Below are positions 36,065 through 57,210 of a stretch of 64,000 bases of DNA, one piece after another. The notes under the pieces are model-generated. The model was not told the DNA's origin. It searched no databases and was given only the letters and a program-made list of their open reading frames with translations. The stretch's first letter is position 1. The number at the start of each line of letters is the position of its first letter. Position numbers and translations under genes: made by a program. The DNA is from Streptomyces sp. NBC_00582 (GTDB lineage: Bacteria > Actinomycetota > Actinomycetes > Streptomycetales > Streptomycetaceae). Location: contig NZ_CP107772.1 of NCBI RefSeq assembly GCF_036345155.1, positions 1,488,001 through 1,552,000 on the forward strand. The letters run 5' to 3'.

Positions 36065-38470
36065 TCAGCCCTCGACGGGCACCTCGGCCCAGACCTGTTT
36101 GCCGCCGCTGACCGGGAGGGTGCCCCAGGCCTCGGAGACGGCCTCCACGAGGAGGATGCCGCGGCCACCGGTGGCCTCCCAGCCGAGGTTGGGCTTGACG
36201 GGCGTACGGGGCGAGGTGTCGGTGAGGGCGACCCGCAGCCGGTTGTTGACGAGGGTGAGGTCGAGGCGGACCCGGCCGTCGGTGTGCACCAGGGCGTTGG
36301 TGACGAGTTCGGAGACCACGAGCAGGACGGTGTCCACGGCGTCCCCGGACACCCCCCAGGAGCGCAGGGTGCGCCGGGTGAAGCGGCGGGCCTGCCGGGC
36401 CGCCTCCGGCACCCGCCACACGGTCCAGCCCTCGCGCAGGGGCTTGACGGCCATGCCGTCGTAGCGCATCAGCAGCAGGGCCACGTCGTCGGCGCGGTGG
36501 GCGCCGCCGAGCAGGGCGTCGGCGACGAGGCCCAGGTCGGCGGGGTCGGAGGCGGACAGTTCCTCGGCGAGCCGGGCCAGTCCGGTGTCGATGTCGAGGG
36601 CGGCGGACTCCACGAGCCCGTCCGTGGTCAGGGCGATGACCGTGCCGGGCAGCAGCCGCAGCGGGGTCATCGGGAACTCGGTGCGGTCCAGTACGCCGAG
36701 CGGGGGACCGCCCTCGCCCTCGGCGAGCTCGGTCGATCCGTCCGGGTGGCGCAGCACCGGTGGCGGGTGTCCGGCGCGCACGCACCAGCCGGTGCCCGAC
36801 TCCATGTCGATGTCGACGTAGGCGCAGGTGGCGAACAGGTCGGTCTCCAGCTCCGTCAGGAGCCGGTTGGCGTGGGCGACGACCACGTCCGGGGGGTGGC
36901 CCTCTGCTGCGTAGGCGCGCAGGGCGGTGCGCATCTGGCCCATCAGGGTGGCGGCGGCGGCGCTGTGGCCCTGGACGTCGCCGATGACGAGGGCCACGTG
37001 GTGGTCGGGGAGCGGGATCACGTCGTACCAGTCGCCGCCGACCTCCAGTCCGGCGGTGGCGGGCAGATAGCGGGCGACGGCGACCCCGCCGGGGAGCGCG
37101 GGCAGCCGGCGCGGAAGGAGCTGGCGCTGGAGCATGCCGACGAGTTCGTGCTCGGCGTCGAAGGCGTGGGCGCGCAGCAGGGCTTGTCCGGCGAGCCCGG
37201 CGGAGGCGGTGAGCAGGGCGCGTTCCTCGGGGCCGAAGTCGTGCGGGCTGTCCCAGCCGATGAGACAGGCGCCCGCCATACGGCCCGCGGCGGGCAGCGG
37301 GAGGACGGCGAGGCCGCCGGGGCCGACCTCGGCGAGGGCGGGTTCCAGTGCACCGGCGCCGGCGGGCCAGATCCGGGCGCGGCCCCCGCGCAGCGCGGCC
37401 GCGAGGGTGGGCATGGCGCGCACGGGCGCGTCGGGCCACTCGCCGCGCCACTCCGAGCGCCACAGCTCGGGCCAGGCCTCGGGGTCGGGCGGGTCGAGGA
37501 CGATGACGACGAGGCGTTCGTTCTCCAGCTCGGCGAGCGCGATCCGGTCGGCCCGCAGCGGCTCGCGCAGCGCGGTGACGACGGCCTGGCTGACGTCCCG
37601 TACGGTGCCGGCGGTGGCGAGGGCGGCGGCCAGGCGCTGGACCCGCGCCACGTCGGTGACCTCGGCGCGCAGGGTGGAGGCGTCGGCGACGGTGCCGACG
37701 AGCCGGGGCGGCCGGTCCTCGCCGCCGGGCAGGAGCCGGCCGCGCAGCCGCAGCCAGCGGGGCGGGGCGTCGGGCTGCAGGACCCGGAACTCCAGTTCGC
37801 GTTCGCCGATCGACATGTGGTCGGCCTCGACGACGGACATCAGCGAGGGCAGGTCCTCGGGGACCGTGCGGGCGAGCAGGGTCTCCACCCGGCCGTCGAA
37901 GTCCTCCCGGCCCATGCCGAACAGCTCCAGCAGGGTGTCGCCGACCTCGACCCGGCCGGTGTCCATGGCGAGACCGAAGGAGCCGGCGCCCGCTGCGCCC
38001 TCCGTGTCGGCGGTGGGGAGCGCGGGCGCGGCGAGGGCCTCCGCGACGAGGGCGAGACAGGCGCGGTCGTCGTCGTCGAAGCCGGCGGGGCGGTCGCTGA
38101 CGGCGAGCAGCGGACCGTCCCGGCCGCCGGGCACGGGCAGCGCCGCCAGATGGACGTCGCGGACGGACATCCGCCACTCCGGGGCACCCTCGGCGAGGTG
38201 TTCCGGTCCCAGCCACACCGGGCGTCCGGTGCGGTGGGCGTCGGCGACCGGGGAGCGCCCGTCGGCGGGGTAGCTCTCGCGCAGCCCGTACAGGGCCCCG
38301 GGCACGCCCGCCGACTCGGTCAGCCGCAGGGGTCCGCCGTCCTCGCCGGCGGTGTACACGGCGGCGAGGGAGGCTCCCGTGAAGACGAGCGCCTGTTCGA
38401 GGACGCGCCGCACCCGCTCCGGGGAGGCGGGATCGGCCGTGATCGTCTTGAGGGCGATTTCGGCACGCAC
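36065..38470 (-). CDS. SpoIIE/PP2C phosphatase with PAS/GAF sensors and RsbW-like ATPase domain
   Basis: This 801-residue soluble signalling protein has, in order, an N-terminal GAF/PAS-like region (1-300), a middle GAF (about 300-410), the PP2C phosphatase (about 425-650; VGGDWYDVIPLP and VIGDVQGHSAAAA, metal Asp) and a C-terminal HATPase_c of the anti-sigma kind (VVSELVTNALVHTDG, TGGRGILLVEAV). The same chain can phosphorylate and dephosphorylate anti-sigma-factor antagonists, as in partner switching. GTG at 38470 follows AAGGGGA. An earlier start gives non-coding-like residues. A second phosphatase lies divergently. A STAS partner candidate lies at 53526. Confidence 0.88.
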   Translation of the reverse strand: MRAEIALKTITADPASPERVRRVLEQALVFTGASLAAVYTAGEDGGPLRLTESAGVPGALYGLRESYPADGRSPVADAHRTGRPVWLGPEHLAEGAPEWRMSVRDVHLAALPVPGGRDGPLLAVSDRPAGFDDDDRACLALVAEALAAPALPTADTEGAAGAGSFGLAMDTGRVEVGDTLLELFGMGREDFDGRVETLLARTVPEDLPSLMSVVEADHMSIGERELEFRVLQPDAPPRWLRLRGRLLPGGEDRPPRLVGTVADASTLRAEVTDVARVQRLAAALATAGTVRDVSQAVVTALREPLRADRIALAELENERLVVIVLDPPDPEAWPELWRSEWRGEWPDAPVRAMPTLAAALRGGRARIWPAGAGALEPALAEVGPGGLAVLPLPAAGRMAGACLIGWDSPHDFGPEERALLTASAGLAGQALLRAHAFDAEHELVGMLQRQLLPRRLPALPGGVAVARYLPATAGLEVGGDWYDVIPLPDHHVALVIGDVQGHSAAAATLMGQMRTALRAYAAEGHPPDVVVAHANRLLTELETDLFATCAYVDIDMESGTGWCVRAGHPPPVLRHPDGSTELAEGEGGPPLGVLDRTEFPMTPLRLLPGTVIALTTDGLVESAALDIDTGLARLAEELSASDPADLGLVADALLGGAHRADDVALLLMRYDGMAVKPLREGWTVWRVPEAARQARRFTRRTLRSWGVSGDAVDTVLLVVSELVTNALVHTDGRVRLDLTLVNNRLRVALTDTSPRTPVKPNLGWEATGGRGILLVEAVSEAWGTLPVSGGKQVWAEVPVEG

Positions 38471-38715
38471 GGGTCCCCTTCCGCGCCCCGCAGCACCCTC
38501 ACTGGCCACGTCCGCAATTACAGCGCGTATGAGACCGCCGCGCAGCCCCTCCGGAGCGCACGACCACCCCCGCCGCCACCGCTTTCCCCGCGCCGCGCGC
38601 CCTGCCGCGCCTGCGTCGCCCCGCCCGCCGCGCGTTCGCCGTGCGCCGTGGGCCGTCTGGGGGCAGATTTGGAGCCGGAACCCGGGGTGGCCGGTGGACC
38701 GAGGAGGTGGTCGCC

Positions 38716-40857
38716 GTGTCCGACGGGCTGGAGGCCGGTCAGGCGACCGCACCCGTGCGGTCGCCGGTGGGCAGGCCGCTGCTGTCCCTGGCGCTGACCT
38801 CGATGATGGACGCGGTCGGCGCGCACTCGGGTGCGGTGTATCTGCGGCCGGGCGACGAACCGGTGCTCCAGATGGCGGTGACCGCGGGCCTGCCCCGTTC
38901 GTTCGCGGCGCCCTGGGAGCGGGTCGGCCTGAACGCGCCGATCCCGGTGGCGGAGGCGGTGCGGGAACGGCGGCTGGTGTGGGTCGGCGGGGAGGAGGAC
39001 ATGGCCCGCCGCTATCCCCGGATCGCGGTCGTGCTGCCGTACCCCTTCGCGCTGGCGGCGATGCCGGTGGCGACGGAGGCGCGGGCGTACGGCGCGGTGT
39101 ACGTGACCTGGCCCAGTTCGCATCCGCCGGAGCTGTCCGAGCGGGAGCGCGAGGAGCTGACGGCGGGCTGCGAGCGGCTGGCGGTGCGACTGGAGCGGAC
39201 GGTGGCGGAGAACCGTACGCTGCGGGTCGAGTCGGATCTGATGGACGCGTGGTCGATCGGCGGCACCGCGGACACCCTCGGCACCGTGGAGGCGGCCCGG
39301 ATGGTGGCCCGGCTGCCGTACGGGCTGTGTTCGCTGGACCTGAGCGGGCGGGTGGGCTTCGCCAACGCGGCGGCGGCGGAACTGCTCGGGGCGCCGGTGC
39401 AACGGCTGCTCGGGGTGCAGCTGTGGGCGGCGGTGCCCTGGCTCAACGATCCCTCGTACGAGGAGCGCTACCGGGCGGCGCTGATCGGTCAGGCACCCGT
39501 GTCGTTCGTGGCGCTGCGGCCGCCCTCGGACTGGCTGTCGTTCCGGCTGTATCCGAGCACCACGGGGATCAGTGTGCGGATCACCCGGGCCCGCAACGTC
39601 TCGGAGCCCCGGCCGTCGCCGGCCCGTCCGGGCGACGCGCCGACCCGGCTGGTGTCGATGTCGCAGGCGCTGAGCCTCGCGGGGGCGCTGACCGAGACGG
39701 TGACCGTGCAGGACGTGGTGGGTCTGGTCGCGGACGAGATCGCGCCGACCGTGGGCAGCCAGGCGCTGGCGCTGCTCGGGGCGCGGGCGGGCCGGCTGCA
39801 CGTGCTGGGCCATCACGGGTATCCCGACCCGCGGGTGGTGGAGCGGTTCGACGGGATGCCGCTGTCGGCCGGGACGCCGGGCGCGCACGCCGTCGCCCAC
39901 GGCGTCCCGGCGTTCTTCGCGTCCCGGCGGCAGTTGGAGCAGCTGTATCCGGCCAAGCGCTCCACCCCGGACGGCTTCGCGGCCTGGGCGTACCTGCCGC
40001 TGATCGCCTCGGGCCGCCCGGTGGGCGCGTGTGTGCTGACGTACGCGGAACCGCACGAGTTCTCCACGCACGAGCGGGCGGTGCTGACCAGTCTGGCCGG
40101 GCTGATCGCGCAGGCCCTGGACCGGGCCCTGCTCTACGACGTCAAGCACCAGCTCGCGCACGGCCTGCAGGCGGCCCTCCTCCCCCACTCGCTGCCTCCG
40201 CTGCCCGGTGTGCAGGCGACCGCCCGCTATCTGCCGGCCACCCGGGGCATGGAGATCGGCGGCGACTTCTACGACCTGGTGCCGTCCCGGCCGCAGGCGG
40301 CGGCGGTGATCGGGGACGTCCAGGGCCACAACGTGACGGCGGCCGGGCTGATGGGCCAGCTCCGGACGGCCGTACGGGCGTACACGACCGTCGGGCAGGA
40401 GCCGGCGGAGGTGATGCGCAGCACCAACCGGCTGCTGATCGACCTGGGGTCGGAGCTGTTCGCGAGCTGTCTGTATCTGCGGCTGGACCCGGAACACGGC
40501 CGGGCGGTGATGGCGCGGGCCGGGCATCCCCCGCCGCTGCTGCGCCGGGCGGACGGACAGGTGCGGGTCCTCGACCTCGCGGGCGGTCCGCTGCTGGGCA
40601 TCGACGGGGCGGCGACGTATCCGACGACGGAGGTGGAACTCGCCCCCGGTTGTGTCCTCGCGCTGTACACCGACGGGCTGATCGAGACACCGGGGGTGGA
40701 CATCGAGGACGCGGTCGCCGCTCTGGGGCGGCGGCTGGGCGCGGTCGGCGACCGTCCGCTGGAGGAGCTGGCCGACGAGCTGGTGAGGCCGTACGCGGCG
40801 GCCGAGGAGCGGATCGACGACGTGGCGCTGCTGTTGCTGCGGGCCGGGGATCGGTGA
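38716..40857 (+). CDS. SpoIIE/PP2C phosphatase with GAF-PAS-GAF sensors
   Basis: The 713-residue protein runs GAF (about 20-165), PAS (about 195-300), GAF (about 320-465) and PP2C (about 485-713; EIGGDFYDLVPSR, VIGDVQGHNVTAAG, then YTDGLIETPG and DDVALLLL). Unlike the divergent paralogue, it lacks the C-terminal ATPase domain, so it can only dephosphorylate. Likely target: a phosphorylated STAS anti-anti-sigma. GTG with AGGAGG 8 nt upstream is the obvious start. The two genes share a promoter region of about 245 bp. A perfect terminator hairpin follows. Confidence 0.9.
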   Translation: MSDGLEAGQATAPVRSPVGRPLLSLALTSMMDAVGAHSGAVYLRPGDEPVLQMAVTAGLPRSFAAPWERVGLNAPIPVAEAVRERRLVWVGGEEDMARRYPRIAVVLPYPFALAAMPVATEARAYGAVYVTWPSSHPPELSEREREELTAGCERLAVRLERTVAENRTLRVESDLMDAWSIGGTADTLGTVEAARMVARLPYGLCSLDLSGRVGFANAAAAELLGAPVQRLLGVQLWAAVPWLNDPSYEERYRAALIGQAPVSFVALRPPSDWLSFRLYPSTTGISVRITRARNVSEPRPSPARPGDAPTRLVSMSQALSLAGALTETVTVQDVVGLVADEIAPTVGSQALALLGARAGRLHVLGHHGYPDPRVVERFDGMPLSAGTPGAHAVAHGVPAFFASRRQLEQLYPAKRSTPDGFAAWAYLPLIASGRPVGACVLTYAEPHEFSTHERAVLTSLAGLIAQALDRALLYDVKHQLAHGLQAALLPHSLPPLPGVQATARYLPATRGMEIGGDFYDLVPSRPQAAAVIGDVQGHNVTAAGLMGQLRTAVRAYTTVGQEPAEVMRSTNRLLIDLGSELFASCLYLRLDPEHGRAVMARAGHPPPLLRRADGQVRVLDLAGGPLLGIDGAATYPTTEVELAPGCVLALYTDGLIETPGVDIEDAVAALGRRLGAVGDRPLEELADELVRPYAAAEERIDDVALLLLRAGDR

Positions 40858-40941: not shown

Positions 40942-42480
40942 TCAGTGCGACTCGTTCACGCCCGAGCCGCCCTCGACACCGTTGTTGTCCTGCGCGTCGG
41001 CGCCGTTCTGGTCCTGGGCGCCGTTGCCGGCCTCCTGGCCGTTGCCGGCCTCGTCGCCGCCCTGGACGGCCTCGCCGGTGTTGTCGTCGATACCGTCACC
41101 GTTCTCGTCCACGGCACCCGCACCGGCGTTGTCGTCGCCGCCCTGGACGGCCTCGCCGGTGTTGTCGTCGATACCGTCACCGTTCTCGTCCACGGCACCC
41201 ACGCCGGCGTTGTCGTCGCCGCCTTGGACGGCCTCGCCGGTGTTGTCGTCGATACCGTCACCGTTCTCGTCCACGGCACCCGCACCGGCGTTGTCACCGC
41301 CGACCCCGTCTCCGGCGCCGACACCGCCGCCGTCACCGAGGGTCGCGCCGGTCGCCTGCAGGGCGGTGGTCACCGGCTGGAAGAAGGTCTCGCCGCCGGC
41401 CTGGCAGTCACCGCTGCCGCCCGAGGTCAGGCCTATCGCCTGGCCGTCCTGGGTGAACAGGGGGCCGCCGCTGTCGCCGGGCTCGGCGCAGACGTTCGTC
41501 TGGATGAGGCCGTTGACGGTGTCGACGCCGTTGGGGTCGGTCTCGCTCTGGAAGTTGACCGTGGCGTCGAGGGCGAGCACCTGGCCGTCGTTGAGGCCGG
41601 TGGTGCTGCCCATCCGGAAGACCTGGGTGCCCACGACCGCGTCGGCGGCCTGCGAGATGGCGACGGTCTGCTGGCCGACATTGACCTCGCTCGGCGCCTC
41701 GGTGTTCGGGTCGTCGTACTTCACGAGTGCGAAGTCGCCGTCGCCGGGGAAGGTCGCCTGGTCGACCGTGGCGATCGGCTGGCCGGTCTCGGAGTCGGAC
41801 CACTGCTTGGCGGCCACACCGCAGTGGCCGGCGGTCAGGAAGGCCGGGCTTCCGTCACTCGCGGTGACGTTGAAGCCGAGGGAGCAGCGGACCGTGCCGC
41901 CCTCCGCCTGGGCGAAGATGGCGTCACCGCCGGAGACCTTCGTGGAGAAGGTGCCGGCCGACTTCTTGAGGGTCGCCATGCCCGACCCGAGCTTCGCGAC
42001 CGTGGACTGGATTTTGTCCCAGTTGTTGCCGGTGACCGTGGAGTCGGCGGTGACCAGGATCTTGTCCGTCTTCGGGTCGACGGCCCAGGCGGTGCCGGGG
42101 AGGGTCGCCTCCGCCTTCAGCGTCTTGGCGGCGGCCGCGAGTTCGGCCGCGCTGTTCTCCACCTGGCGGACCTTGGCGCCGGCCTTCTCGGCCTGGACGA
42201 TGACGTTGTTGTCGTCGCCGTCGACGTTCACGACGTTGATCACGAGCTGCTGGCCGTCGGAGTCGTAGTACGAACCGGCGAAGGCGTCACCGAGCAGCTC
42301 CTCGAGCTGTGCGGCGAGGTCCGAGGCGTCGCCCGACTTCAGGGTCTTGACGGAGGCGGCGTTGTTGGAGCCGTCCTGGGAGGCGTTGGCCTGGGGAAGC
42401 AGGATGGCCGCTGCTCCGAGCGCCGCGACACCACCGACCGCGATGATGGCCTTGCGCTTCGTAACTCGCTTGTGACTCAA
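40942..42480 (-). CDS. Secreted S1-family serine protease with C-terminal Ca-binding-like Asp/Gly repeats
   Basis: The 512-residue precursor has a signal (KAIIAVGGVAALGAAAILL), a propeptide and a chymotrypsin-fold domain with His219 (LTAGHC), Asp249 (GDGDFALVKY) and Ser337 (PGDSGGP). An unusually acidic tail of about 120 residues follows. It holds three near-identical 27-residue units centred on DENGDGIDDNTGE, the D-x-N-x-D-G-x-x-D pattern of Ca-binding thrombospondin-3-like repeats. These units arise from 81-bp DNA repeats. TTG start with GGAGGT 8 nt upstream. It is divergent from, but 755 bp away from, the peptide-export locus. Any role in processing that peptide is speculation. Confidence 0.9.
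   Translation of the reverse strand: MSHKRVTKRKAIIAVGGVAALGAAAILLPQANASQDGSNNAASVKTLKSGDASDLAAQLEELLGDAFAGSYYDSDGQQLVINVVNVDGDDNNVIVQAEKAGAKVRQVENSAAELAAAAKTLKAEATLPGTAWAVDPKTDKILVTADSTVTGNNWDKIQSTVAKLGSGMATLKKSAGTFSTKVSGGDAIFAQAEGGTVRCSLGFNVTASDGSPAFLTAGHCGVAAKQWSDSETGQPIATVDQATFPGDGDFALVKYDDPNTEAPSEVNVGQQTVAISQAADAVVGTQVFRMGSTTGLNDGQVLALDATVNFQSETDPNGVDTVNGLIQTNVCAEPGDSGGPLFTQDGQAIGLTSGGSGDCQAGGETFFQPVTTALQATGATLGDGGGVGAGDGVGGDNAGAGAVDENGDGIDDNTGEAVQGGDDNAGVGAVDENGDGIDDNTGEAVQGGDDNAGAGAVDENGDGIDDNTGEAVQGGDEAGNGQEAGNGAQDQNGADAQDNNGVEGGSGVNESH
41059..41300. repeat. 81-bp coding tandem repeats in the protease tail
   Basis: Three copies in register (for example ctcgccggtgttgtcgtc recurs every 81 bp) encode the DENGDGIDDNTGE units. 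Copies are almost identical at the DNA level, which points to recent expansion or gene conversion. Confidence 0.85.
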
Positions 42481-43235
42481 AAAACTCGACCTCCTGGGGG
42501 ACGGGGTCTGGCTGCCGGTCGTCGACAGCTCCGTACAGCGGCGCCTGGTTGGCCATGAGTACGCGGGCTGCACGGGGTGCGTTCAATCGCGTTTGCCAAT
42601 TGCCTTTGCGCAATGCGGAATCGGCCATGACCGTGTCCTGACCGGGCCATGGGGAGGGAACCGCCCATACCGCGACGACCGCCCGCGAAGCAGACGGGAT
42701 CCTTCCAGGACACGACCGTCGACATCCCGCCAGGCGCACAGGCCCCCCACAGCGTCGGCTTGATCGGATGTCTCGATCCCGACAGCTCCGGCCGCGGCGC
42801 CGGACCACGCACGGTGAGCAGGCCGTCACGCTCGGCGGTCGTCGGAGAATCTGCACACCGATTGCCCAACCGGGTCACCGGAAGCGGGGATTCTGCACAA
42901 CTCCCGGGGGTCGCACACGCCATTGGGGCAGGAGTGTCGGATTCGCCGCGACAGCCCCCGCCGCTCATCCGAGCGAATCCGGCCAAAGTCGTGAAGGAGT
43001 CGGCGACAAGTCGTGCGCGCGCCTGCACCGTTTGCCGCCGGAGTGCCGCAAGTTCCCAGGTGAGGCCGGTGATTGATTGGAAGCGGGCCCGGCGGACCTG
43101 CTTTCATCCATCGCACCGCAGGGTTCGGACGCCTCCCGGAAACGGGGGTTCGGCCCTGACGGTCGCGGCCGTCATCTGTCCCCAGAGGGGGCCGCTCCCC
43201 CCTTGTGAGATATCCATATGAAGGGAAGTTCCCCC
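42481..43235. other. Long intergenic region between protease and peptide-export genes
   Basis: About 755 bp with lower coding character than the neighbours. ORFs here have odd composition and no RBS, and I consider it non-coding. It contains the promoters of both flanking divergent genes and a palindrome (43157-43174). Two copies of tctgcaca (42850-42900) stand nearby. I found no second peptide gene in it. Confidence 0.6.
43157..43174. promoter_or_regulatory. Candidate operator of the peptide-export operon
   Basis: tgacggtcgcggccgtca: perfect 6-bp arms (tgacgg/ccgtca) around a 6-nt spacer, 62 bp upstream of the peptide start, in the expected promoter position. No regulator gene is adjacent. 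Confidence 0.45.
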
Positions 43236-43451
43236 ATGAACTCCACCCCCCAGGTTGAGACCGTCGAGATCTCCGACGCGGACCTCGACAACGTCTCCGG
43301 CGGTCTGTCCGTGAACGCCCTCGGCACCGTCACGGGCCTGGTGGACGGCATCGCCCCGGTCTCCGGCCTGGTCAACACGGCCGTCGGCACCGTCGAGGGC
43401 GTCACCGGCCTGAGCACCGCCCCGGTCGCCAACCTGGTCGCCGGTCTCTGA
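43236..43451 (+). CDS. Double-glycine-leader peptide precursor (bacteriocin/RiPP-like)
   Basis: This 71-residue peptide has a 23-residue acidic leader, MNSTPQVETVEISDADLDN followed by VSGG, of the ComC/class II bacteriocin type cut after Gly-Gly. The 48-residue core begins LSVNALGTVTGLVDG and ends APVANLVAGL. It is Gly/Val/Thr/Leu-rich, has no Cys, Lys, Arg or aromatic residue, and contains a loose internal repeat (VNALGTVTGLV / VNTAVGTVEGV). The ATG at 43236 was chosen for the gaaggg RBS upstream; a second ATG six codons earlier is possible. The export genes start 84 bp downstream. With no Cys it cannot form lanthionine. The core could be an unmodified membrane-active or aggregating peptide. 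Confidence 0.8.
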   Translation: MNSTPQVETVEISDADLDNVSGGLSVNALGTVTGLVDGIAPVSGLVNTAVGTVEGVTGLSTAPVANLVAGL

Positions 43452-43535
43452 TCACACCCCGTGTGACCTCCCGAGTCCCGGAGCCCCCACCCGGCTCCGG
43501 GACTCGTCGGCGTCCCGACCCCTCGAGAGAAGCCC

Positions 43536-44342
43536 GTGCAGTTCCGCCAACAGGCCCTCGCCAAGCTCCAGTCACCGGAGGAACTCGACCTGCCGGTGCG
43601 TTTCGCGCGCCCACAGGGCCGGCTGGTGCTGGCCGTGACCGTCGCCGTCCTGGCGGCCGCCTCCGGGTGGGCGGTGACCGGCTCGGTCGCCTCCACGGTG
43701 AGCGCGCCCGCCGTCCTCACCCACGGCGAGGGCAGCTACCTCCTGCAGAGCCCGGCCGCCGGCCAGGTCACCGCCGTCCTCGCCAAGGAGGGCGAACGGC
43801 TGCCCGCCGACTCCCCCGTGCTGAAGGTCCGTACGGCCGACGGGGAGGCCGTCGTGCGCACGGTCGCCGCGGGCCGGATCACCGCCCTCGCCGTCACGCT
43901 CGGCCAGATCCTCTCCACCGGCGCGAACGTCGCGGCCGTGGAGAAGGTCGCGGGCGCCGACGACCCGCTGTACGCGACGGTGTACGTACCGGCCCGGAAC
44001 GCCGCGTCGATCCCCGAGGACGCGGCCGTCGACCTGACCGTGCAGACCGTGCCCGCCCAGGAGTACGGCGTGCTGCGCGGCCATGTGAAGTCGGTGGACC
44101 GTACGGCCCAGTCGGCGCAGCAGATCTCCGCGTTCCTCGGCGACAGCCGGCTCGGCGAGCAGTTCACCGAGGACGGACGTCCGGTGGCGGTGCTCGTACG
44201 GCTCGACACGTCGGCGTCCACGAAGAGCGGCTACCGGTGGTCGTCGGCGGACGGGCCGCCGTACACGATCGGTTCCATGACCATGGCCACCGGTTCGATC
44301 CGGCTGGCCGACCAGCGCCCCGTCGATTGGCTGCTTCCGTGA
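43536..44342 (+). CDS. HlyD-like secretion protein of an NHLP/NHLM bacteriocin export system
   Basis: The 268-residue protein opens with FRQQALAKLQSPEELDLP, the hallmark N-terminus of NHLM-type secretion proteins, then a single membrane helix (LVLAVTVAVLAAASGWAV). A biotinyl-lipoyl-like barrel follows (SPAAGQVTAVLAKEGERL, VAAGRITALAVTLGQIL). It bridges the ABC transporter and the cell envelope, though this is a Gram-positive host without an outer membrane. GTG start. Its stop overlaps the next gene's start by 4 bp (GTGA). Adaptor proteins of this type occur almost only with peptide exporters, which supports the function of the locus. Confidence 0.88.
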   Translation: MQFRQQALAKLQSPEELDLPVRFARPQGRLVLAVTVAVLAAASGWAVTGSVASTVSAPAVLTHGEGSYLLQSPAAGQVTAVLAKEGERLPADSPVLKVRTADGEAVVRTVAAGRITALAVTLGQILSTGANVAAVEKVAGADDPLYATVYVPARNAASIPEDAAVDLTVQTVPAQEYGVLRGHVKSVDRTAQSAQQISAFLGDSRLGEQFTEDGRPVAVLVRLDTSASTKSGYRWSSADGPPYTIGSMTMATGSIRLADQRPVDWLLP

Positions 44343-46561
44343 CCACCGCCGAGCGGACCCGGAGCCGACGGCGCGCGGCGCCGCCCCGGCGCACGGTCCC
44401 CAGGAGCCGTACGAAGACGGTCCGCACCCCGACCGTGCTGCAGATGGAGGCCGTGGAGTGCGGCGCCGCCTCCCTCGCGATGGTCCTCGGCCACTACGGC
44501 CGGCATGTCCCGCTGGAGGAACTGCGCATCGCGTGCGGTGTCTCGCGCGACGGCTCGCGCGCCGGCAACCTGCTGAAGGCGGCGCGGGGTTACGGCCTGA
44601 CGGCCAAGGGCATGCAGATGGACCTGGCGGCCCTCGCCGAGGTGAGGGCGCCCGCCATCCTGTTCTGGGAGTTCAACCACTACGTCGTCTACGACGGCAT
44701 GGGCCGCCGCTTCGGCCGCCGGGGCGTGTACGTCAACGACCCCGGCAAGGGGCGGCGGTTCGTGCCGATGGAGGACTTCGACGGCAGCTTCACCGGTGTC
44801 GTGCTGGTGCTGGAGCCCGGCGAGGGGTTCGAACGCGGCGGACGCCGGCCGGGGGTGCTGGGCGCGATGCCGGCCCGGCTGCGCGGCACGGCGGGCACCC
44901 TGCCGGCCGCGGTGCTGGCGAGTCTGCTGCTGGTGCTGGTCGGTGCCGCCGTCCCGGCGCTGAGCCGGACCTACATCGACCTGTTCCTGATCGGCGGTCA
45001 GACCTCGCTGCTGGGGGTGCTGTTCGCGTCCATGGGCACCTGTGTCCTGCTGACGGTCGCGCTGACCTGGCTGCAACAGGCCAACCTGCACCACGGCCGC
45101 ATCATCTCCTCCACGCTCTCCAGCGCCCGGTTCCTGCGCCATCTGCTGCGGCTGCCGGTGACGTTCTTCTCCCAGCGCAGCCCGGCCGACCTGGTGCAGC
45201 GCCTCCAGTCGAACGACGCCGTCGCCGAGACCCTCGCCCGCGATCTGGCCTCGGCGGGCGTGGACGCGATCGTCGTCGTCCTGTACGCGGTCCTCCTCTA
45301 CACCTACGACCCGCAGCTCACGTTCGTCGGCATCGGTGTGGCGCTGCTGAACGTCGTCGCCATGCGGATCGTGGTCCGGATGCGCGCGACCCGGACGGCG
45401 AAGCTGCGCGCGGACACCGCACGGCTCACCAACACGGCGTACACCGGGCTGCAGTTGATCGAGACGATGAAGGCGACCGGCGGGGAGGACGGCTACTTCC
45501 GCAAGTGGGCGGGGCAGCACGCCACCACGCTGGAGGAGCAGCAGCGGCTCGGGGTGCCGAGCGCCTGGCTGGGCGTGGTCGCGCCGACGCTCGCCACCCT
45601 CAACAGCGCGCTGATCCTGTGGATCGGCGGGATGCGGGCCATCGAGGGCCATGTCTCCGTGGGGCTGCTGGTCGCCTTCCAGGCGCTGGTCGCCCGTTTC
45701 ACGGCGCCGCTGACCCGCCTCAACGGGGTGGCGGGCCGGATCCAGGACTTCGCGGCGGACGTGGCCCGGCTCAAGGACGTGGAGAGCTTCCGCGCCGACC
45801 CGCTCTACGACCGTCGCACGGGCGCCGACTCCACCCGCCGGCTCCGGGGGCATGTCGAGCTGGAGGACGTCACGTTCGGCTACAGCCCGCTGGACAAGCC
45901 CCTGCTGTCGGGGTTCGACCTGAGCGTCGGCCCCGGGCAGCAGGTGGCGCTGGTCGGCGGCTCGGGCAGCGGGAAGTCGACGGTCTCCCGGCTGCTGTCC
46001 GGTCTGTACACGCCCTGGGAGGGCGTGATCCGGATCGACGGACAGCGGCTGGAGGACATCCCGCGCGGGGCGCTCGCCTCCTCCGTCTCCTTCGTCGACC
46101 AGGAGGTGTTCCTCTTCGAGGGCACCGTCCGCGACAACGTGGCGCTGTGGGACCCGTCCATCCCGGACGACGCGGTGGTCGAGGCGCTGCGGGACGCGGC
46201 GCTGTACGACGTCGTCATGCGCCGGCCCGGCGGCATCACCGCCAGGGTCGAGCAGGACGGCCGCAACTTCTCCGGTGGTCAGCGTCAACGCCTGGAGATC
46301 GCGCGGGCGTTGGTGCGCAGGCCCAGCATCCTCGTCCTGGACGAGGTGACGAGCGCGCTGGACGCGGAGACGGAGCTGGTCGTGATGGACAACCTGCGCC
46401 GGCGCGGCTGCGCCTGTGTGGTGATCGCCCATCGGCTGAGCACGGTCCGCGACAGCGACGAGATCGTGGTGCTCCAGCACGGCACGATCGTCGAGCGCGG
46501 GCGGCACGAGGACCTCGTCGCGCGCGGCGGGGCGTACGCGGCGCTGGTCAGGGAGCGGTGA
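44339..46561 (+). CDS. Peptidase-containing ABC transporter (C39 PCAT, NHLP type)
   Basis: The 740-residue protein has an N-terminal C39 protease (catalytic Cys41 in VECGAASLAMVLGHYGRH, His in FNHYVVYDG, Asp in VNDPGKGRRF), a six-helix exporter domain (about 180-470) and an ATPase with Walker A GGSGSGKST, signature FSGGQRQRLEIARAL, Walker B LVLDEVTS and H-loop AHRLST. C39 domains cut double-glycine leaders during export, exactly what the small peptide carries. The preceding 30 residues are basic. It is coupled by 4-bp overlaps to both neighbours. It probably heterodimerises with the next ABC protein. Confidence 0.93.
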   Translation: MTTAERTRSRRRAAPPRRTVPRSRTKTVRTPTVLQMEAVECGAASLAMVLGHYGRHVPLEELRIACGVSRDGSRAGNLLKAARGYGLTAKGMQMDLAALAEVRAPAILFWEFNHYVVYDGMGRRFGRRGVYVNDPGKGRRFVPMEDFDGSFTGVVLVLEPGEGFERGGRRPGVLGAMPARLRGTAGTLPAAVLASLLLVLVGAAVPALSRTYIDLFLIGGQTSLLGVLFASMGTCVLLTVALTWLQQANLHHGRIISSTLSSARFLRHLLRLPVTFFSQRSPADLVQRLQSNDAVAETLARDLASAGVDAIVVVLYAVLLYTYDPQLTFVGIGVALLNVVAMRIVVRMRATRTAKLRADTARLTNTAYTGLQLIETMKATGGEDGYFRKWAGQHATTLEEQQRLGVPSAWLGVVAPTLATLNSALILWIGGMRAIEGHVSVGLLVAFQALVARFTAPLTRLNGVAGRIQDFAADVARLKDVESFRADPLYDRRTGADSTRRLRGHVELEDVTFGYSPLDKPLLSGFDLSVGPGQQVALVGGSGSGKSTVSRLLSGLYTPWEGVIRIDGQRLEDIPRGALASSVSFVDQEVFLFEGTVRDNVALWDPSIPDDAVVEALRDAALYDVVMRRPGGITARVEQDGRNFSGGQRQRLEIARALVRRPSILVLDEVTSALDAETELVVMDNLRRRGCACVVIAHRLSTVRDSDEIVVLQHGTIVERGRHEDLVARGGAYAALVRER

Positions 46562-49374
46562 GTCCCGTGCAGGACGGTGATGTCGTCCTCGGCGCGCTGG
46601 GCGGGACGGGTGCGCGCGTCGACTGCGCCGGCTTCGGCCGCCTCGACCTCGAGGGCCCCCAGGTGCTGTGGCTGGTCACGTCCGGTGCCCTGGACCTGTT
46701 CGCGGTGGACGCCGAACAGCAGGGCCACTGGCACCACCTGGGCCGTCTGGAGGCGGGCGCGCTGCTGCTCGGTCCGGTCTCCGGGCCGCAACACACCCTG
46801 ATCGCCCGCCCGTCGCGCGACTGTGTGGTGCACCGCATCGGTCTGCGCGAGCTGTACCGGCCCGCCGGCACCCAGACCTGGTCCTACGACGAGTACGGCA
46901 ACCCGCGGTACGTGCCGCCGACGTCGAGCCCGCTGGAGTACGCGCTCGCGCTCGGCGTCGGCCGCGGTCTGACCGTCCTCTTCCAGGCACCGACGGCCTC
47001 GGAGCAGCCGGCCGAGGTGACCGACGACGACGTGTTCTGGATGCAGGTCCCGCCGGGGAGCGTGCGGTACGGCTCCCTCTACGGCGCGGAGGCGGCCGCC
47101 GACCTGCTGATGGACCCGGCGGTGTGGCAGAGCATGGTCGACCAGCAGTACCGCCTGCTGACCACGCTGGACCGCTGGATCGAGCAGGTGGAGCGCACCC
47201 ACGAGACGCGTGCCGCCGCCGGGATCAAGGCGGGCGAGGCGGTCCGGGCGCAGGCCGACCGGACCCTGCTCGCCGCGATCGGCGGCAAGGGGGGCCGGCG
47301 CACCACGCCCGCCGACGCGGACGCCACCTTCGCCGCCTGCCGGCTGGTCGCCGAGGCGGCCGGGATCGTCCTCGCGGAGCCCGCGCGGGCGGGGGCCGGT
47401 GACGACCGTCTCGACCCGGTCGAGCAGGTGGCCCTGGCCTCCCGGGTGCGTACCCGTGCGGTACGGCTCGACGGGCGCTGGTGGCGCGACGACGTGGGCC
47501 CGCTGGTCGGCCACCGGGCGCTGTCCGGGGCCCCGGTCGCGCTGCTCTGGCGGCGCGGCGGGTATGTCGCCGTCCACCCGGCGACCGGGCGGGAGACCCC
47601 GGTCGAGAAGGCGAACGCCGAGGAGTTCGAGCCGCGGGCCGTGATGTTCTACCGGCCGCTGCCCGAACGGGGTTTGAGCCCGCTGGGCCTGCTGCGGTTC
47701 AGCATGCGCGGCACCGGCGGCGATCTGGGCAACATGCTGCTGAGCGGGCTGGTGACGGTGGCGATCGGGGCGCTGGTGCCGATCGCGACGGGCAAGGTGC
47801 TCGGCGCGTACGTGCCGAGGGCACAGGCGGGGGCGATCGCGCAGATGTGTCTGGCCGTGATGGTCAGCGGGGTGGTCGCGGCGGCGTTCCTGCTGTTGCA
47901 GAACCTCACCATCCTGCGGCTGGAGGGCCGGATCGAGTCGACGCTCCAACCGGCCGTGTGGGACCGGCTGTTGAGGCTGCCGACGACGTTCTTCGCCGAG
48001 CGGTCCACGGGTGAGCTGGCCAGTGCCGCCATGGGCGTCAGCGCGATCCGCCGGCTGCTGGCGGGGCTCGGCCCCTCGGTGGCGCAGTCGGTGACCGTCG
48101 GCGCGATGAACCTGGGGCTGCTGCTGTGGTACAGCGTGCCGATGGCGCTGGCGGCGATCGGCATGCTCGTCGTGATCGCGGGGGTGTTCCTGGGGCTCGG
48201 GCTGTGGCAGGTGCGGTGGCAGCGGCGGCTGGTGGTGCTCTCCAACCAGCTCAACAACCAGGCGTTCCAGACCCTGCGGGGTCTGCCGAAGCTGCGGGTG
48301 GCGGCCGCCGAGAACTACGCGTACGCGGCCTGGGCGGAACGGTTCGCGCGCAGCCGTGAGCTCCAGCAGCGGCTCGGCCGGATCAAGAACCTCACCACCG
48401 TGCTGGGCGCGGTGTACCTGCCGCTGTGTTCCCTGCTGATGTTCATGCTGCTGGCCGGTCCGGCGCGCGGCGCGCTGTCGGCGGCGGACTTCCTCACCTT
48501 CAACACGTCGATGACACTGCTGCTGACCTCGGTCACCTCGCTGACCGGCGCCTTCGTGGCGGCGGTGGGCGCGCTGCCGCTGTTCGAGGAGATCCGCCCG
48601 GTGCTGGAGGCGACGCCGGAGGTCCGCTCGGCGAGCACCCGGCCGGCCCCGCTCTCCGGCGCCCTGGAGGCCCGGCGGCTCTCCTTCCGCTACTCCGACG
48701 ACGGCCCGCTCGTCCTCGACGACGTCTCCTTCGAGGTCCGGCCGGGCGAGTTCGTGGCGGTCGTCGGCCCCAGCGGCTGCGGCAAGTCGACGCTGCTGCG
48801 TCTGCTCATCGGCTTCGACAGGCCGGTCTCGGGCAGTGTCCTCTACGACGGCCAGGACCTGGCCGCCCTCGACCGGTCGGCGGTGCGCCGGAGTTGCGGT
48901 GTGGTGCTGCAGCACGCGCAGCCGTTCACCGGGTCGATCCTGGACGTCATCTGCGGCACCGAGGCCTACACCCCGGAGGAGGCGATGGCGGCCGCCGAAC
49001 TGGCGGGGCTCGCGGAGGACATCCGGCGGATGCCGATGGGGCTGCACACCATCGTCTCCGGCAGCGGCTCGGTCTCCGGCGGCCAGCGCCAGCGGCTGAT
49101 GATCGCCCAGGCCCTCATCCGCCGGCCGCGCATCCTGTTCTTCGACGAGGCGACCAGCGCCCTGGACAACGACACCCAGCGCACGGTCATGGAGAGCACC
49201 CGCAAGCTGAACGCCACCCGGATCGTCATCGCCCACCGGCTGTCGACGGTGCTGGACGCCGACCGGGTCGTCGTGATGGAGAACGGGAAGATCACCCAGC
49301 AGGGGCCGCCCGCCCGGCTCCTCGCGGACACGGGCGGGCGGCTGCACGAGCTGGTGCGACGGCAGTTGACGTAG
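46558..49374 (+). CDS. NHLP-type bacteriocin export ABC transporter, permease-ATPase without peptidase
   Basis: The 938-residue protein has an N-terminal region of about 370 residues without known motif (contains QTWSYDEYGNPRYVPPTSS and WFR-like WWRDDVGPLVGH). Next come a six-helix exporter domain (about 400-680) and an ATPase with Walker A GPSGCGKST, signature VSGGQRQRLMIAQAL, Walker B LFFDEATS and H-loop AHRLST. This long N-terminus marks the second ABC partner of NHLM/NHLP systems. It starts at GTG overlapping the upstream stop. The pair most likely works as a heterodimer, the first subunit cutting the leader. No downstream gene shares the strand before 50.4 kb. Confidence 0.9.
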   Translation: MSPVQDGDVVLGALGGTGARVDCAGFGRLDLEGPQVLWLVTSGALDLFAVDAEQQGHWHHLGRLEAGALLLGPVSGPQHTLIARPSRDCVVHRIGLRELYRPAGTQTWSYDEYGNPRYVPPTSSPLEYALALGVGRGLTVLFQAPTASEQPAEVTDDDVFWMQVPPGSVRYGSLYGAEAAADLLMDPAVWQSMVDQQYRLLTTLDRWIEQVERTHETRAAAGIKAGEAVRAQADRTLLAAIGGKGGRRTTPADADATFAACRLVAEAAGIVLAEPARAGAGDDRLDPVEQVALASRVRTRAVRLDGRWWRDDVGPLVGHRALSGAPVALLWRRGGYVAVHPATGRETPVEKANAEEFEPRAVMFYRPLPERGLSPLGLLRFSMRGTGGDLGNMLLSGLVTVAIGALVPIATGKVLGAYVPRAQAGAIAQMCLAVMVSGVVAAAFLLLQNLTILRLEGRIESTLQPAVWDRLLRLPTTFFAERSTGELASAAMGVSAIRRLLAGLGPSVAQSVTVGAMNLGLLLWYSVPMALAAIGMLVVIAGVFLGLGLWQVRWQRRLVVLSNQLNNQAFQTLRGLPKLRVAAAENYAYAAWAERFARSRELQQRLGRIKNLTTVLGAVYLPLCSLLMFMLLAGPARGALSAADFLTFNTSMTLLLTSVTSLTGAFVAAVGALPLFEEIRPVLEATPEVRSASTRPAPLSGALEARRLSFRYSDDGPLVLDDVSFEVRPGEFVAVVGPSGCGKSTLLRLLIGFDRPVSGSVLYDGQDLAALDRSAVRRSCGVVLQHAQPFTGSILDVICGTEAYTPEEAMAAAELAGLAEDIRRMPMGLHTIVSGSGSVSGGQRQRLMIAQALIRRPRILFFDEATSALDNDTQRTVMESTRKLNATRIVIAHRLSTVLDADRVVVMENGKITQQGPPARLLADTGGRLHELVRRQLT

Positions 49375-49403: not shown

Positions 49404-50324
49404 TCAGGTCGCTCCGGGCACCGGCGCCCCGGAGGGGAAGCCGGCCGCGAGACAGGCCCGGTAGTACGCCTCCCAGGATCGGGTGCCCCCGTCCGGTGCG
49501 GCCGCCGGACCACCCGCCGCCCTGGTGTCCAGCGCGGCCAGGCACACCTCCCAGCCGGCGGCGTTGCGCGCGGCGGCGTCGGCGCGTTCCAGGACGTCGG
49601 TGAGGGTGAGGCGGGTGCGTTCGTCGCCGTCGGGTTCGAGATCGAAGTGGAGTTCGTCGCCGCCCCAGGCGAAGGACAGATGGCTGAGCGCGTCCACCGC
49701 GAGGACCCTGCCGGTCGACTCGGGCAGGTTCGGATCCCCGCTGAAGTGGATCGTGCCGCCGGGACGCAGGTCCACCGCCACCCGGGACGGGAACCAGTGG
49801 GCCAGTTCGGCCGGGTCGGTGACGAACCGCCAGACGCGGGCGACCGGATGGGCGTAGGTGCGGGTGAAGCGGACCGCGGGCCGTCCGTCGTCCAGGGTGA
49901 GATGGACGCCCGTGAGGTCGGAGGGGTCCACGCCGTACTGCTCCCGGCCGTACAGGTGGAGCTGGATGCCGTCGGGGTCGTCGAAGACGAGCAGCGGGCC
50001 GAGGGTGGCCTCGATCAGGGGGGAGTGCGGGACGCCGAGCGCGTCGAGGTGGGCGGCCCAGGCCTCGACCGCGGCCCGGTCGCGGACCGCGAAGCTCACG
50101 GGATCGAAGTTCCGGCAGCCGAGGGCCGCCTCCGGGTTGACCCGGAGGGCGAGCAGGGTGTCCCCCAGCCCCGGGAGCGGGCCGCCGACCCCGCGCAGCA
50201 CACCCTCGGCGTCGGGGAACTCGAGGGTGACCCGGAAGCCGAGGACCCTGGCGTACCAGTCGCGGGCCCGGTCGAGGTCGGTGACGGGGATCTTCACATG
50301 GTGGATTCCGGCGAGTTCCGGCAT
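49404..50324 (-). CDS. Fusion protein: VOC (glyoxalase-like) domain plus SRPBCC/AHSA1 domain
   Basis: The 306-residue protein joins an N-terminal glyoxalase-like fold (HHVKIPVTDLDRARDWYARVL, ending FDDPDGIQLHLYG) to a C-terminal AHSA1-type START-like domain (VRFTRTYAHPVARVWRFVTDP, then HWFPSRVAVDLRPGG). The first domain often binds metal and small molecules, for example drugs, and the second binds hydrophobic ligands. Such fusions in Streptomyces are of unknown role, possibly resistance. The ATG at 50324 agrees with the fold. It is convergent with the export operon at 49374, 29 bp from stop to stop. Confidence 0.85.
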   Translation of the reverse strand: MPELAGIHHVKIPVTDLDRARDWYARVLGFRVTLEFPDAEGVLRGVGGPLPGLGDTLLALRVNPEAALGCRNFDPVSFAVRDRAAVEAWAAHLDALGVPHSPLIEATLGPLLVFDDPDGIQLHLYGREQYGVDPSDLTGVHLTLDDGRPAVRFTRTYAHPVARVWRFVTDPAELAHWFPSRVAVDLRPGGTIHFSGDPNLPESTGRVLAVDALSHLSFAWGGDELHFDLEPDGDERTRLTLTDVLERADAAARNAAGWEVCLAALDTRAAGGPAAAPDGGTRSWEAYYRACLAAGFPSGAPVPGAT

Positions 50325-50362
50325 GGGGTCCACGCTACGGCCGCCCCGGCGACCCCCGCTAA

Positions 50363-50421
50363 CGAAACTTTGCCGTTTCGCTGAAAGTGGTCTAGCCTCG
50401 ATGTGTACGAAACAGTTTCGT
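50363..50421. promoter_or_regulatory. Two palindromic operators upstream of the MFS exporter
   Basis: acgaaacagtttcgt (50407-50421) is a perfect inverted repeat (acgaaac-a-gtttcgt). The same half-site recurs as cgaaac...gtttcg at 50363-50380 with a 6-nt spacer. TetR repressors of drug exporters typically bind GAAACnGTTTC-like sites. No TetR gene is adjacent. Confidence 0.6.
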
Positions 50422-50479
50422 TTACGTGTTCTTTGCCCTGCCTGCTCCCACCGCACCGAACGCCCTGGAGTGGTTCCCC

Positions 50480-55675: not shown

Positions 55676-56890
55676 TCAAGTGGTCTGGATCCAGTCGCGG
55701 TAGGCATGGGCGAGGTCGTCGTCTCGGCTGAGGCCTCGTTCAAGTCTGGAGATGGTGGTGGGCCAGACGCCGAAGTGCTGGGCGACGGCGGTGAGGGTGA
55801 TGTTCTTTGCTTGCCGTAGGGGCCGCAGGTCGGCGATGCCGGGGACGGTGACGGTAGTGGTGAGGCAGCGGAAGATCTCCCGGGCGATGGCTCGTTTCAG
55901 GAGCCGGATGATCTCCTTCTTCGTCCGGCCGGCAGCTGTCTGGCGGGCCACGTATGCGCGGGTTGTGGCGTCGCTGGACATGCGGACGAGAGCGATGCGG
56001 TAGAGAGCCGCGTTGGCGTCCCGGTCGCCGCCCCGGGACAGGCGGTGCCGGTTCGTTCTGCCGCTGGAGGCGGGGACCGGGGCAACGCCGCACAGGGCGG
56101 CGAAGGATGCCTCGGTCCGCATGCGTTCGGGGTTGCCTCCGGCGGTGACCAGCAGCTGTGCCGCGGTGTCGGGGCCGACGCCGTAGGCGGCTCGCAGGCC
56201 GGGGTTGTGGGCACTGACCTCGCTGTCCAGGGCCCGGGTCAGGGCCTCGTGTTCGGCGGTCAGCTCCTTGACGCGTCGGGCGAGGATCTTCAGCGCGGTG
56301 AGGACCGCGGTGTGCACCGCGTCCCCGGCCGGTCGTAGCCGGGCCAGGGCATCAGTGCGGTCTGTCCCGCTGAGCTGCCTGTATTTGGCGCGGATGGTCT
56401 CGGGTGCGGTGAAGAGGAGGTGGGTTATCTGGTTCAGGGCGGCGGTGCGTGCCTTGACGGCGGAGCGGGCGGCGTTGTGCAGGGCGCGTATGCCGGAAAT
56501 GGTGTCGTCCTTGGGCGCGGCCTGGGCGCGTCCGGACAGGGCGGCGCGGGCGGCGGCGTAGGCGTCGATGGGGTCGGACTTGCCGATGCGGCGGCGTTCG
56601 GCCCGGTCGGGCCGGTTGACCTCCACGACGTGAAGGCGCGCTGAGCGGGCGGCGCGGGTGAAGCCGGCGCCGTAGGAGGCGGTGCCTTCCACGCCGATCG
56701 CGCTCACGTTTCCGTGGGCGGTCAGGAAGGCCAGGGCCGCGGCGTATCCAGCGGCGGTGGTACTGAACTCGGCGTCCGCGAGGTGGCCTCCGTTGTCGCT
56801 GATCACCGCAACGTGAATGGTGTCGGCGTGGGAGTCGACCCCACCGAACACGTCCTGGTCCGCGGTGTCCTCCACAACCTCTGATGTCAT
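55676..56890 (-). CDS. IS110-family transposase
   Basis: The 404-residue DEDD transposase has the RuvC-like N-terminal domain (FGGVDSHADTIHVAVI, first catalytic Asp), the DPIDAYAAARAAL segment and the C-terminal Tnp domain with CGVAPVPASSGRT (catalytic Ser). The C-terminus is longer than in many relatives and holds a helix-turn-helix-like end (NITLTAVAQHFGVWPTTI). The start MTSEVVED was chosen at the first Met with family-like sequence. The element interrupts the permease remnant. It probably uses a bridge RNA encoded in its non-coding end. Confidence 0.9.
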   Translation of the reverse strand: MTSEVVEDTADQDVFGGVDSHADTIHVAVISDNGGHLADAEFSTTAAGYAAALAFLTAHGNVSAIGVEGTASYGAGFTRAARSARLHVVEVNRPDRAERRRIGKSDPIDAYAAARAALSGRAQAAPKDDTISGIRALHNAARSAVKARTAALNQITHLLFTAPETIRAKYRQLSGTDRTDALARLRPAGDAVHTAVLTALKILARRVKELTAEHEALTRALDSEVSAHNPGLRAAYGVGPDTAAQLLVTAGGNPERMRTEASFAALCGVAPVPASSGRTNRHRLSRGGDRDANAALYRIALVRMSSDATTRAYVARQTAAGRTKKEIIRLLKRAIAREIFRCLTTTVTVPGIADLRPLRQAKNITLTAVAQHFGVWPTTISRLERGLSRDDDLAHAYRDWIQTT

Positions 56891-57210
56891 GCTGATGGTG
56901 CCTTCCCAACCGGAGGTGGGCACCGGCCGGGCGGCGCAGACAGGACATTGAAGGGGCTTCTGGACCAAGCTCCTGACTTGTTGAATTGAGCCCAGATGCT
57001 CGGTCTGCAGCCGTAGCGTCCAGGGTGTCGGTCGGCACGGGCCCGCAGTGCTCCTTGCCGCCTTCGGGCTGGCTCACTGATAGCGTGCCGCCGCCGGCCG
57101 ACACCCGCGCGGTGTGGCTCGACAGAGGCATGAAGGTGACACGGTGACTTCAAGTCAGGGTGCCCACCGCACTCCCCTTCCTGTCTCATCGAGTGCGAGG
57201 GCACCAGACT
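56891..57210. other. Non-coding interval between divergent IS110 transposases; possible bridge RNA region
   Basis: It is 320 bp long, in front of both transposase genes. IS110-group elements encode a guide ('bridge') RNA in the non-coding end ahead of the transposase. GC-rich inverted pieces such as gcaccggccgg near 56930 and gccgccgccggccg near 57090 are compatible with structured RNA. I cannot fold it by hand, and the border between the two elements is not marked. Confidence 0.4.

Follow-up and report, generated by a model that had tools for sequence, protein, structure and literature searches.

The 64,000-nucleotide window analysed here is part of the 11.1-Mb genome of Streptomyces sp. NBC_00582 (contig NZ_CP107772.1, positions 1,488,001 to 1,552,000), and contains a small-peptide gene followed by three exporter genes (positions 43236 to 49374 of the window), a locus whose relatives are found in Streptomyces. 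We conclude that it probably encodes a dedicated double-glycine secretion system, in which a family of co-regulated peptides, secreted without modification, would share one exporter. The export function and the regulon are well supported by the sequence data. We consider export with removal of the leader very likely and an unmodified product likely, whereas a role at the cell surface or envelope is our best guess, drawn from the composition of the peptides and from a published link between regulation and morphology. The locus itself is not new; what we add is the co-occurrence of leader and exporter, the presence of extra leader peptides, a promoter pattern and an operator-like repeat.

Precursor peptide and exporter

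The precursor gene (43236-43451; plus strand, as are all features below unless stated otherwise) encodes 71 amino acids, and its translation confirms the original prediction of a 71-residue precursor with a short leader ending in VSGG and a Cys-free core of 48 residues. The leader (43236..43304, 23 codons) reads MNSTPQVETVEISDADLDNVSGG. The core that follows (43305..43451, 48 codons plus stop), LSVNALG...LVAGL, is without Lys or Arg and rich in Val, Gly, Thr, Leu and Ala. An alternative start at 43218 gives a 77-aa reading, and the ATG at 43236 is favoured because the gene has a probable ribosome-binding sequence, GAAGGGAAG, at 43220..43228.

The three exporter genes lie downstream of the precursor, as had been predicted, and encode a short, NHLM-like HlyD-type adaptor of 268 aa (43536..44342), a C39-peptidase ATP-binding cassette (ABC) exporter of 740 aa (44339..46561) and a second NHLM-type ABC permease/ATPase of 938 aa (46558..49374); the GTGA overlaps at the two junctions between them are genuine. 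Both ABC proteins scored above the cut-offs of their NHLM families in NCBIfam (C39-ABC, 1018.4 bits against 853.3 for TIGR03796; second ABC, 873 bits against 709.4 for TIGR03797). The HlyD protein, recognised by Pfam HlyD_3, fell just below the cut-off of TIGR03794 (143.5 bits against 156.2), its best stretch covering profile positions 254-417 of 421. Residues Cys41, His114 and Asp134 of the C39-ABC protein were retained in 121 of 122 homologues, the last one having no reading at those positions, and the protein is related over its full length to the solved peptidase-containing transporters 4ry2 and 8vp3. Of 699 candidate proteins, 656 were homologous at E ≤ 0.01, which, together with the constant order of precursor and HlyD described below, excludes chance. 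In the mechanism that we propose, the C39 domain would cut after Gly-Gly and the exporter would release the plain 48-aa core.

The system has the C39-ABC (TIGR03796) and second ABC (TIGR03797) subunits, the HlyD-like partner and the predicted Gly-Gly cleavage in common with the NHLM/NHLP export system (PMC2887384). It differs from that system in its leader, which measures 23 aa instead of about 70-83 residues and is without a nitrile hydratase-like or Nif11-like part (no such model matched the precursor leader even at E ≤ 1), in its Cys-free cores, and in being without a recognised modification enzyme.

Distribution of the leader-exporter pair

We searched 295 Streptomyces genomes for the precursor (E ≤ 1e-3), HlyD (E ≤ 1e-20) and a 28-position leader profile (E ≤ 1e-4); only some first-look candidates were scored per genome (8 for HlyD, 28 for the leader), so that the absences count as lower bounds. 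The full precursor was present in 195 genomes, HlyD in 220 and the leader profile in 218. Leader and HlyD occurred together in 217 of the 295 genomes, the leader only in one, HlyD only in three (G028, G038 and G188, with weaker HlyD matches) and neither in 74. The locus is therefore present in about three quarters of the sampled Streptomyces genomes, judged by the leader-exporter pair. Of the 26 genomes in which HlyD but no precursor was matched, 23 carry, immediately upstream of HlyD, a leader peptide attached to another core.

Gene order is equally consistent. In 80 named loci, selected for having the precursor, HlyD follows the precursor in all 80 and the ABC genes in all 79 that are long enough. 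HlyD also follows in each of 20 divergent Streptomyces loci, with the full exporter present in 18 (two contigs end). Across the family, the leader was found in 9 of the 17 sampled genera (95/200 genomes), and 20 regions from genera other than Streptomyces comprised 14 with a full exporter, five without HlyD, two of which (L256 and L267) gave a distant partial ABC match (27-33%), and one YcaO/ThcOx cluster (L253). In one of the 14 (L252), a single exporter is preceded by two leader peptides that differ in their cores. An order-level search, for which the share of genomes outside the family is not given and from which no absence there is deduced, returned matches in 210 of 293 genomes; the 3 genera concerned, out of 9, belong to that one family. 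In a plasmid collection, 2 of 72,556 records matched.

Orphan leader peptides and a shared promoter-like pattern

Two or more leader matches, up to a maximum of five, were found in 97 of the 218 leader-bearing genomes; the window's own genome has one significant leader match only. Twenty Streptomyces regions with weaker matches were evenly divided between 10 with an exporter beside the peptide and 10 with no exporter homologue within 12-19 kb. Among 10 neighbour proteins of seven such orphan loci, no enzyme for ribosomally synthesised and post-translationally modified peptides (RiPPs) and no exporter was recognised; they are ordinary proteins, including SpoIIE phosphatases, a permease, an amidohydrolase and an acyl-CoA dehydrogenase.

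Neither these orphan cargo peptides nor the conserved promoter and operator formed part of the original prediction. Sequence blocks located far upstream of the start codon are common to the window and 79 close relatives, and recur in divergent species and ahead of several orphans. They include a promoter-like element, GATTGG-N18-TGCTTTCATCC (43075..43109), of which the commonest form elsewhere is GATTGG-N17/18-TGCTTTGATCC. With up to two mismatches, the -10-like motif TGCTTTGATCC occurred in 125 of the 147 upstream regions at exporter-linked loci, in 8 of 15 orphan regions and in 38 of 1,620 shuffled sequences. A search of 30 chosen genomes with TTGG-N14-17-SRTGCTTTSATC gave 27 matches in 18 genomes and none with the reversed pattern used as the control. 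All but one of these matches (the exception is L284) precede a leader peptide, 17 exporter-linked and nine orphan; the orphans belong to the O1 type (MNSAPQV...; 5/9) and to an MNLTP.../MNFTP... group with one Cys in the core (4/9).

Further upstream, an operator-like direct repeat with a 22-bp period, GTGAAG-N16-GTGCGC-N4-CTGCAC (42991..43028), was delineated from the conserved footprint and a genome search. The pattern GTGAAG-N16-GTGnnC-N3-5-CTGCAC had 29 exact matches in 28 of 40 genomes, the reversed control had none, and every one of the 29 precedes a leader peptide; 28 belong to exporter loci and one to an orphan. These patterns support a regulon defined by a common leader, promoter and exporter for the O1 type and the MNLTP.../MNFTP... 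group, and less so for other orphans. The single exporter would then also carry orphan peptides, with leader, promoter and exporter forming one regulon.

Core composition, structure and selection

The chemistry of the cores was compared in 131 distinct exporter-linked cores, many of which are close relatives. Their median length is 48 residues, mean net charge -2.1 and mean grand average of hydropathy (GRAVY) +1.0. In 127 of them the last two residues are Gly and one of Leu, Ile, Val, Ala or Met. Cys occurs in none of them, so that the hydrophobic, Cys-free character predicted for the single core of the window holds throughout. Lys and Arg are absent from 118 cores and present in 13. In distant species, the leader and exporter are retained and the core sequence is altered, yet remains hydrophobic, anionic and Cys-free; in most close species the core is near-identical.

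Ratios of nonsynonymous to synonymous substitutions (dN/dS) were estimated from 92 distinct close sequences (1,500 sampled pairs) with a counting method that ignores codon bias, so only the contrast between regions is used. The leader had a dN/dS of 0.24 and the core 0.55; by precursor residue, the values were 1.1 for residues 24-35, 0.32 for 36-55 and 0.59 for 56-71. By this contrast purifying selection is stronger on the leader than on the core, and the core is maintained, neither hypervariable nor frozen, with a constrained middle and a free start. The statement that the core is exceptionally conserved, derived from identities of 85-94%, was dropped in view of the values for core and leader.

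The precursor matched no Pfam or NCBIfam model at E ≤ 1e-3, including no Pfam chaplin, rodlin or SapB family. At E ≤ 1, the NCBIfam matches were to ATP synthase alpha (0.0011) and to FapA amyloid chaperone models (0.0078 and 0.03), all far under the cut-off, and a PDB sequence search with the precursor found nothing meaningful (best E 0.13, ATP synthase alpha). The hydrophobic moment of the window core at 100-105 degrees exceeds that of shuffled controls (18-residue windows, 105 degrees, p 0.003), and with 24-residue windows 0 of 300 shuffles reached it; 16 combinations were tried in all. No such moment was found at 160-180 degrees. The AlphaFold model is all-helical but of low confidence, with a predicted local distance difference test score (pLDDT) of 58. 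Taken together, moment and model give a weak hint of an amphipathic helix. The suggestion that the peptide might self-assemble stays hypothetical, the available signals being the helix moment, this model and the sub-threshold FapA matches.

An unmodified class II-type bacteriocin, with a core that permeabilises competitors, would have the same gene layout. The leader is short and acidic, with the E-L/I-S-x-x-x-L-x-x-V/I-x-G-G end and C39 processing of class II bacteriocin leaders of the TIGR01847 type (PMC2887384), leader, Gly-Gly and core are arranged as in that class, and databases and papers have used lantipeptide or bacteriocin labels for the locus (PMC5733086). Pfam Bacteriocin_IIc does match the precursor, far below its cut-off (11.8 bits against 27.1; E 0.24). 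However, the cores are anionic, with Lys or Arg in few of the linked cores and none in that of the window, and the system has two different ABC subunits. No immunity gene was recognised among the window neighbours, in a survey that did not extend to small open frames. Near-identical cores in most close species mean that kin would be hit, and expression is linked to an envelope-related two-component system (PMC6629963). We therefore regard a bacteriocin as unlikely, and the toxin named among the options of the original prediction as a poor fit to such Lys/Arg-poor, negatively charged cores.

A secreted signal or pheromone sensed by same-species neighbours would agree with the fact that Gly-Gly-leader/C39-ABC systems include pheromones, ComA being among the sequence relatives, and with a leader that is constant while the core varies across distant clades. 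At 48 aa, the product is long for this role and very hydrophobic, and the core is nearly unchanged across many species. No sensor kinase or receptor was recognised among the window's own neighbours, the divergent loci not having been annotated for these, and we consider a signal improbable.

Under the secretion system that we favour, the target of the anionic, hydrophobic and helix-prone peptides would instead be the surface or matrix of the producer itself, with effects on the hyphal envelope, dispersal or hydrophobicity, and they would not serve as bacteriocins. SapB has lanthionines, and chaplins and rodlins use Sec signals. The peptides described here would resemble these three as small hydrophobic secreted products tied to the hyphal surface, but their linked cores are Cys-free, they would leave by the Gly-Gly exporter, and the window precursor is in no Pfam family at the threshold given above.

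Modification enzymes and a related locus in another genus

No LanM, YcaO, radical SAM or cyclase was recognised with Pfam among the chosen frames of the window between 34.7 and 57 kb, of which the part from 53.1 to 55.6 kb yielded no family; within that range, the predicted absence of a nearby modification enzyme is upheld. The relatives were compared with the window's own genes only, without LanM annotation. The Pfam library is capable of detecting YcaO, which it found at locus L253. A lanthipeptide, as implied by the database name 'type A2 lantipeptide', was rejected, as there is no Cys in any linked core and no synthetase was recognised in the window. This product name in public databases is contradicted by the sequence and looks wrong.

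Locus L253 (8900-9560), from another genus of the same family, has two tandem precursors beside genes for YcaO, a ThcOx-type dehydrogenase, HlyD and C39-ABC. In the precursor that was scanned, a Cys-rich core follows a long leader of the NHLP type with the end LETRELSEADLDSVAGG; its match to TIGR03793 (E 3.9e-11) reached 42.6 bits, short of the cut-off of 50.9. The two cores read ..CCCCSPCCCCT and ..SCSCSPCCTST, and both leader ends are like the short leader of the window, which resembles the last ~17 residues of the long leader. By gene content and sequence, L253 appears to be a thiazole/oxazole-modified microcin (TOMM) relative of the enzyme-free system, and the resemblance suggests that the short leader may be a remnant of a longer NHLP leader.

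The same locus gives some weight to a third alternative, namely a RiPP with a modifying enzyme encoded elsewhere that acts on Ser/Thr or the backbone: a related exporter is found there beside YcaO and ThcOx-type genes and long NHLP-type precursors with Cys-rich cores, and NHLP precursors may be encoded at a distance from both the exporter and the enzymes that act on them (PMC2887384). Against this stand the Cys-free linked cores and the enzyme survey. No enzyme was recognised near the window locus or among the orphan neighbour proteins, no whole-genome enzyme search having been made, and none at the promoter and operator matches, which reach only genes with those patterns. We consider such modification in trans doubtful, and an enzyme-free export system remains our preferred explanation.

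Regulation and the Streptomyces coelicolor counterpart

Streptomyces coelicolor SCO0753-SCO0756 has the gene order of the window, extending from the secreted protease SCO0752 through the exopolyphosphatase SCO0757 (PMC6629963; PMC6295645 for the secreted protease). SCO0753 is a 77-aa, Cys-free, hydrophobic peptide, SCO0754 a HlyD homologue, and SCO0755-0756 are ABC genes (PMC6629963). The window differs in having glyoxalase/AHSA1 and major facilitator superfamily (MFS) genes between the second ABC gene and the exopolyphosphatase gene (Ppx). On gene order and size, rather than alignment to an SCO-named record, SCO0753-0756 is almost certainly the orthologous locus; identities of 92-93% were found for homologues in records of S. 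violaceoruber and S. ambofaciens.

Activation of the Sco5282 kinase gave a strain with dispersed growth in which sco0753 was the most induced single gene (over 60-fold); the four genes rise jointly, the peptide gene most, and are nearly silent in the null mutant, and the peptide is described as dependent on the Sco5282/Sco5283 two-component system (PMC6629963). This joint rise lends indirect support to the presumed co-transcription of precursor and exporters. The same study noted the lack of Cys and suggested a possible surface-active role at the hyphal surface, so both the locus and the surface-coat idea of the original prediction were already in print (PMC6629963). The words 'motif', 'direct repeat' and 'binding site' do not occur in the main text of that paper, and no mention of orphan cargo or of a leader family was found in its available text. 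Elsewhere, sco0756 was induced in a mutant of ppm1 (polyprenol phosphate mannose synthase) (PMC5882110), and two further studies class the locus under bacteriocin. In one it was up in an aor1 mutant (PMC5733086), and in the other the level of sco0756 fell slightly, to 0.6-fold, in a mutant of a copper metallochaperone (PMC6414726).

Sco5283 is of the OmpR type. The repeat at 42991-43028 is a candidate site for Sco5283 or its ortholog, given its spacing and position, since in general an activator of the OmpR type would need a repeat with 22-bp spacing ahead of a weak promoter. We propose that the regulon would be switched on, probably, by Sco5283 or an ortholog. MtrA was rejected as the regulator; its consensus, GTAACC-N5-GTAACC (PMC12323332), is unlike the 22-bp GTGAA repeat.

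The gap of 84 bases between the precursor and HlyD genes contains a strong hairpin with a 13-bp stem (43473..43505). The minimum free energy of the region 43446-43540 is -44.5, against -29.2 for shuffled sequences (z -5.06). An inverted repeat of at least 10 bp is present at this gap in 43 of 80 loci, and in 54 of 80 it is longer than in all 20 shuffles. The hairpin could possibly act as an attenuator or a 3' stabiliser, resulting in more peptide than exporter mRNA. An intrinsic terminator after the precursor was not called, the T-run being absent, and Rfam gave no match at E ≤ 1 within 42574-43560. The 5' untranslated region (43165-43197) contains a conserved inverted sequence, GCGGCC...GGGGGCCGC, before the ribosome-binding site, also without an Rfam match.

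Points against the proposed interpretation

Several observations weigh against the interpretation given above. The single genome with a leader match and no HlyD (G001, 79% complete) contains an orphan-type leader peptide (L129); here the assembly may lack the exporter, or the orphan may persist without one. The regulatory patterns are incomplete: the -10-like motif is missing from 7 of 15 orphan upstream regions even at two mismatches, the exact promoter pattern from 12 of 30 genomes, including that of the window, which has a deviating copy. Of the 40 genomes searched for the operator, 12 lack an exact copy, and a single operator match is located at an orphan. The 19 distinct orphan cores have a GRAVY of 0.61, Cys in three and a Gly-Leu-type end in two; they are chemically different, and a function shared with the linked cores is therefore not required. 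The dN/dS of the core, and that of its first 12 residues in particular, indicates that part of the core evolves freely, which is contrary to what rigid assembly predicts, and the quality of the AlphaFold model is low. The case for a surface role is built on composition and on expression in one species, and the response of sco0756 in the copper-metallochaperone mutant fits no simple envelope-stress story.

Neighbouring genes

The divergent neighbour of the precursor gene, outside the core unit, encodes an alpha-lytic/streptogrisin-type secreted serine protease (40942..42573, minus strand; Pfam Trypsin plus Pro_Al_protease). Past the catalytic domain, its C terminus carries the tandem repeat DNAGAGAVDENGDGIDDNTGEAVQGG. 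It was rejected as a component of the system, being kept in 73 of 77 eligible close (named) loci but adjacent in only 1 of the 20 divergent loci. Upstream of it are two SpoIIE-type PAS/GAF phosphatase genes (36065-38752, minus strand; 38641-40857, plus strand). Of 71 named loci, 70 have at least one SpoIIE-type region upstream and 22 have two or more, and SpoIIE phosphatase genes also adjoin orphan peptides at L164, L166 and L169 (one locus family) and at L170. Such genes are common in Streptomyces, and this neighbourhood may be due to chance.

Downstream of the second ABC gene, a frame at 49404-50456 (minus strand) combines a glyoxalase/bleomycin-resistance domain with an AHSA1/polyketide-cyclase domain and has counterparts in 24 of 77 related loci. 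The MFS gene is kept in 34 of 76 named loci and Ppx, which lies beyond it in the window, in 57 of 73. An IS110-family transposase is encoded at 55676-56968 (minus strand).

Implications for Streptomyces and the Streptomycetaceae

The leader predicts cargo, the promoter predicts co-regulation and there is a single exporter, which makes the function of the system directly testable. With leader and promoter as queries, one can also look for orphan secreted peptides, which genome mining based on modification enzymes would overlook. The S. coelicolor counterpart is the most strongly induced gene in a strain whose pellet morphology is altered (PMC6629963), and pellet morphology matters in fermentation. 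For the Streptomycetaceae, we tentatively suggest a class of dispersed secreted peptides undescribed in the literature searched, a possibility about which we are less confident than about the secretion system itself. In it, an enzyme-free, NHLP-derived Gly-Gly exporter with a dedicated promoter and operator would be controlled by an envelope two-component system, and one to five species-specific cargo peptides might condition the hyphal surface, as a counterpart to the chaplin/SapB layer that is reached by another export route.

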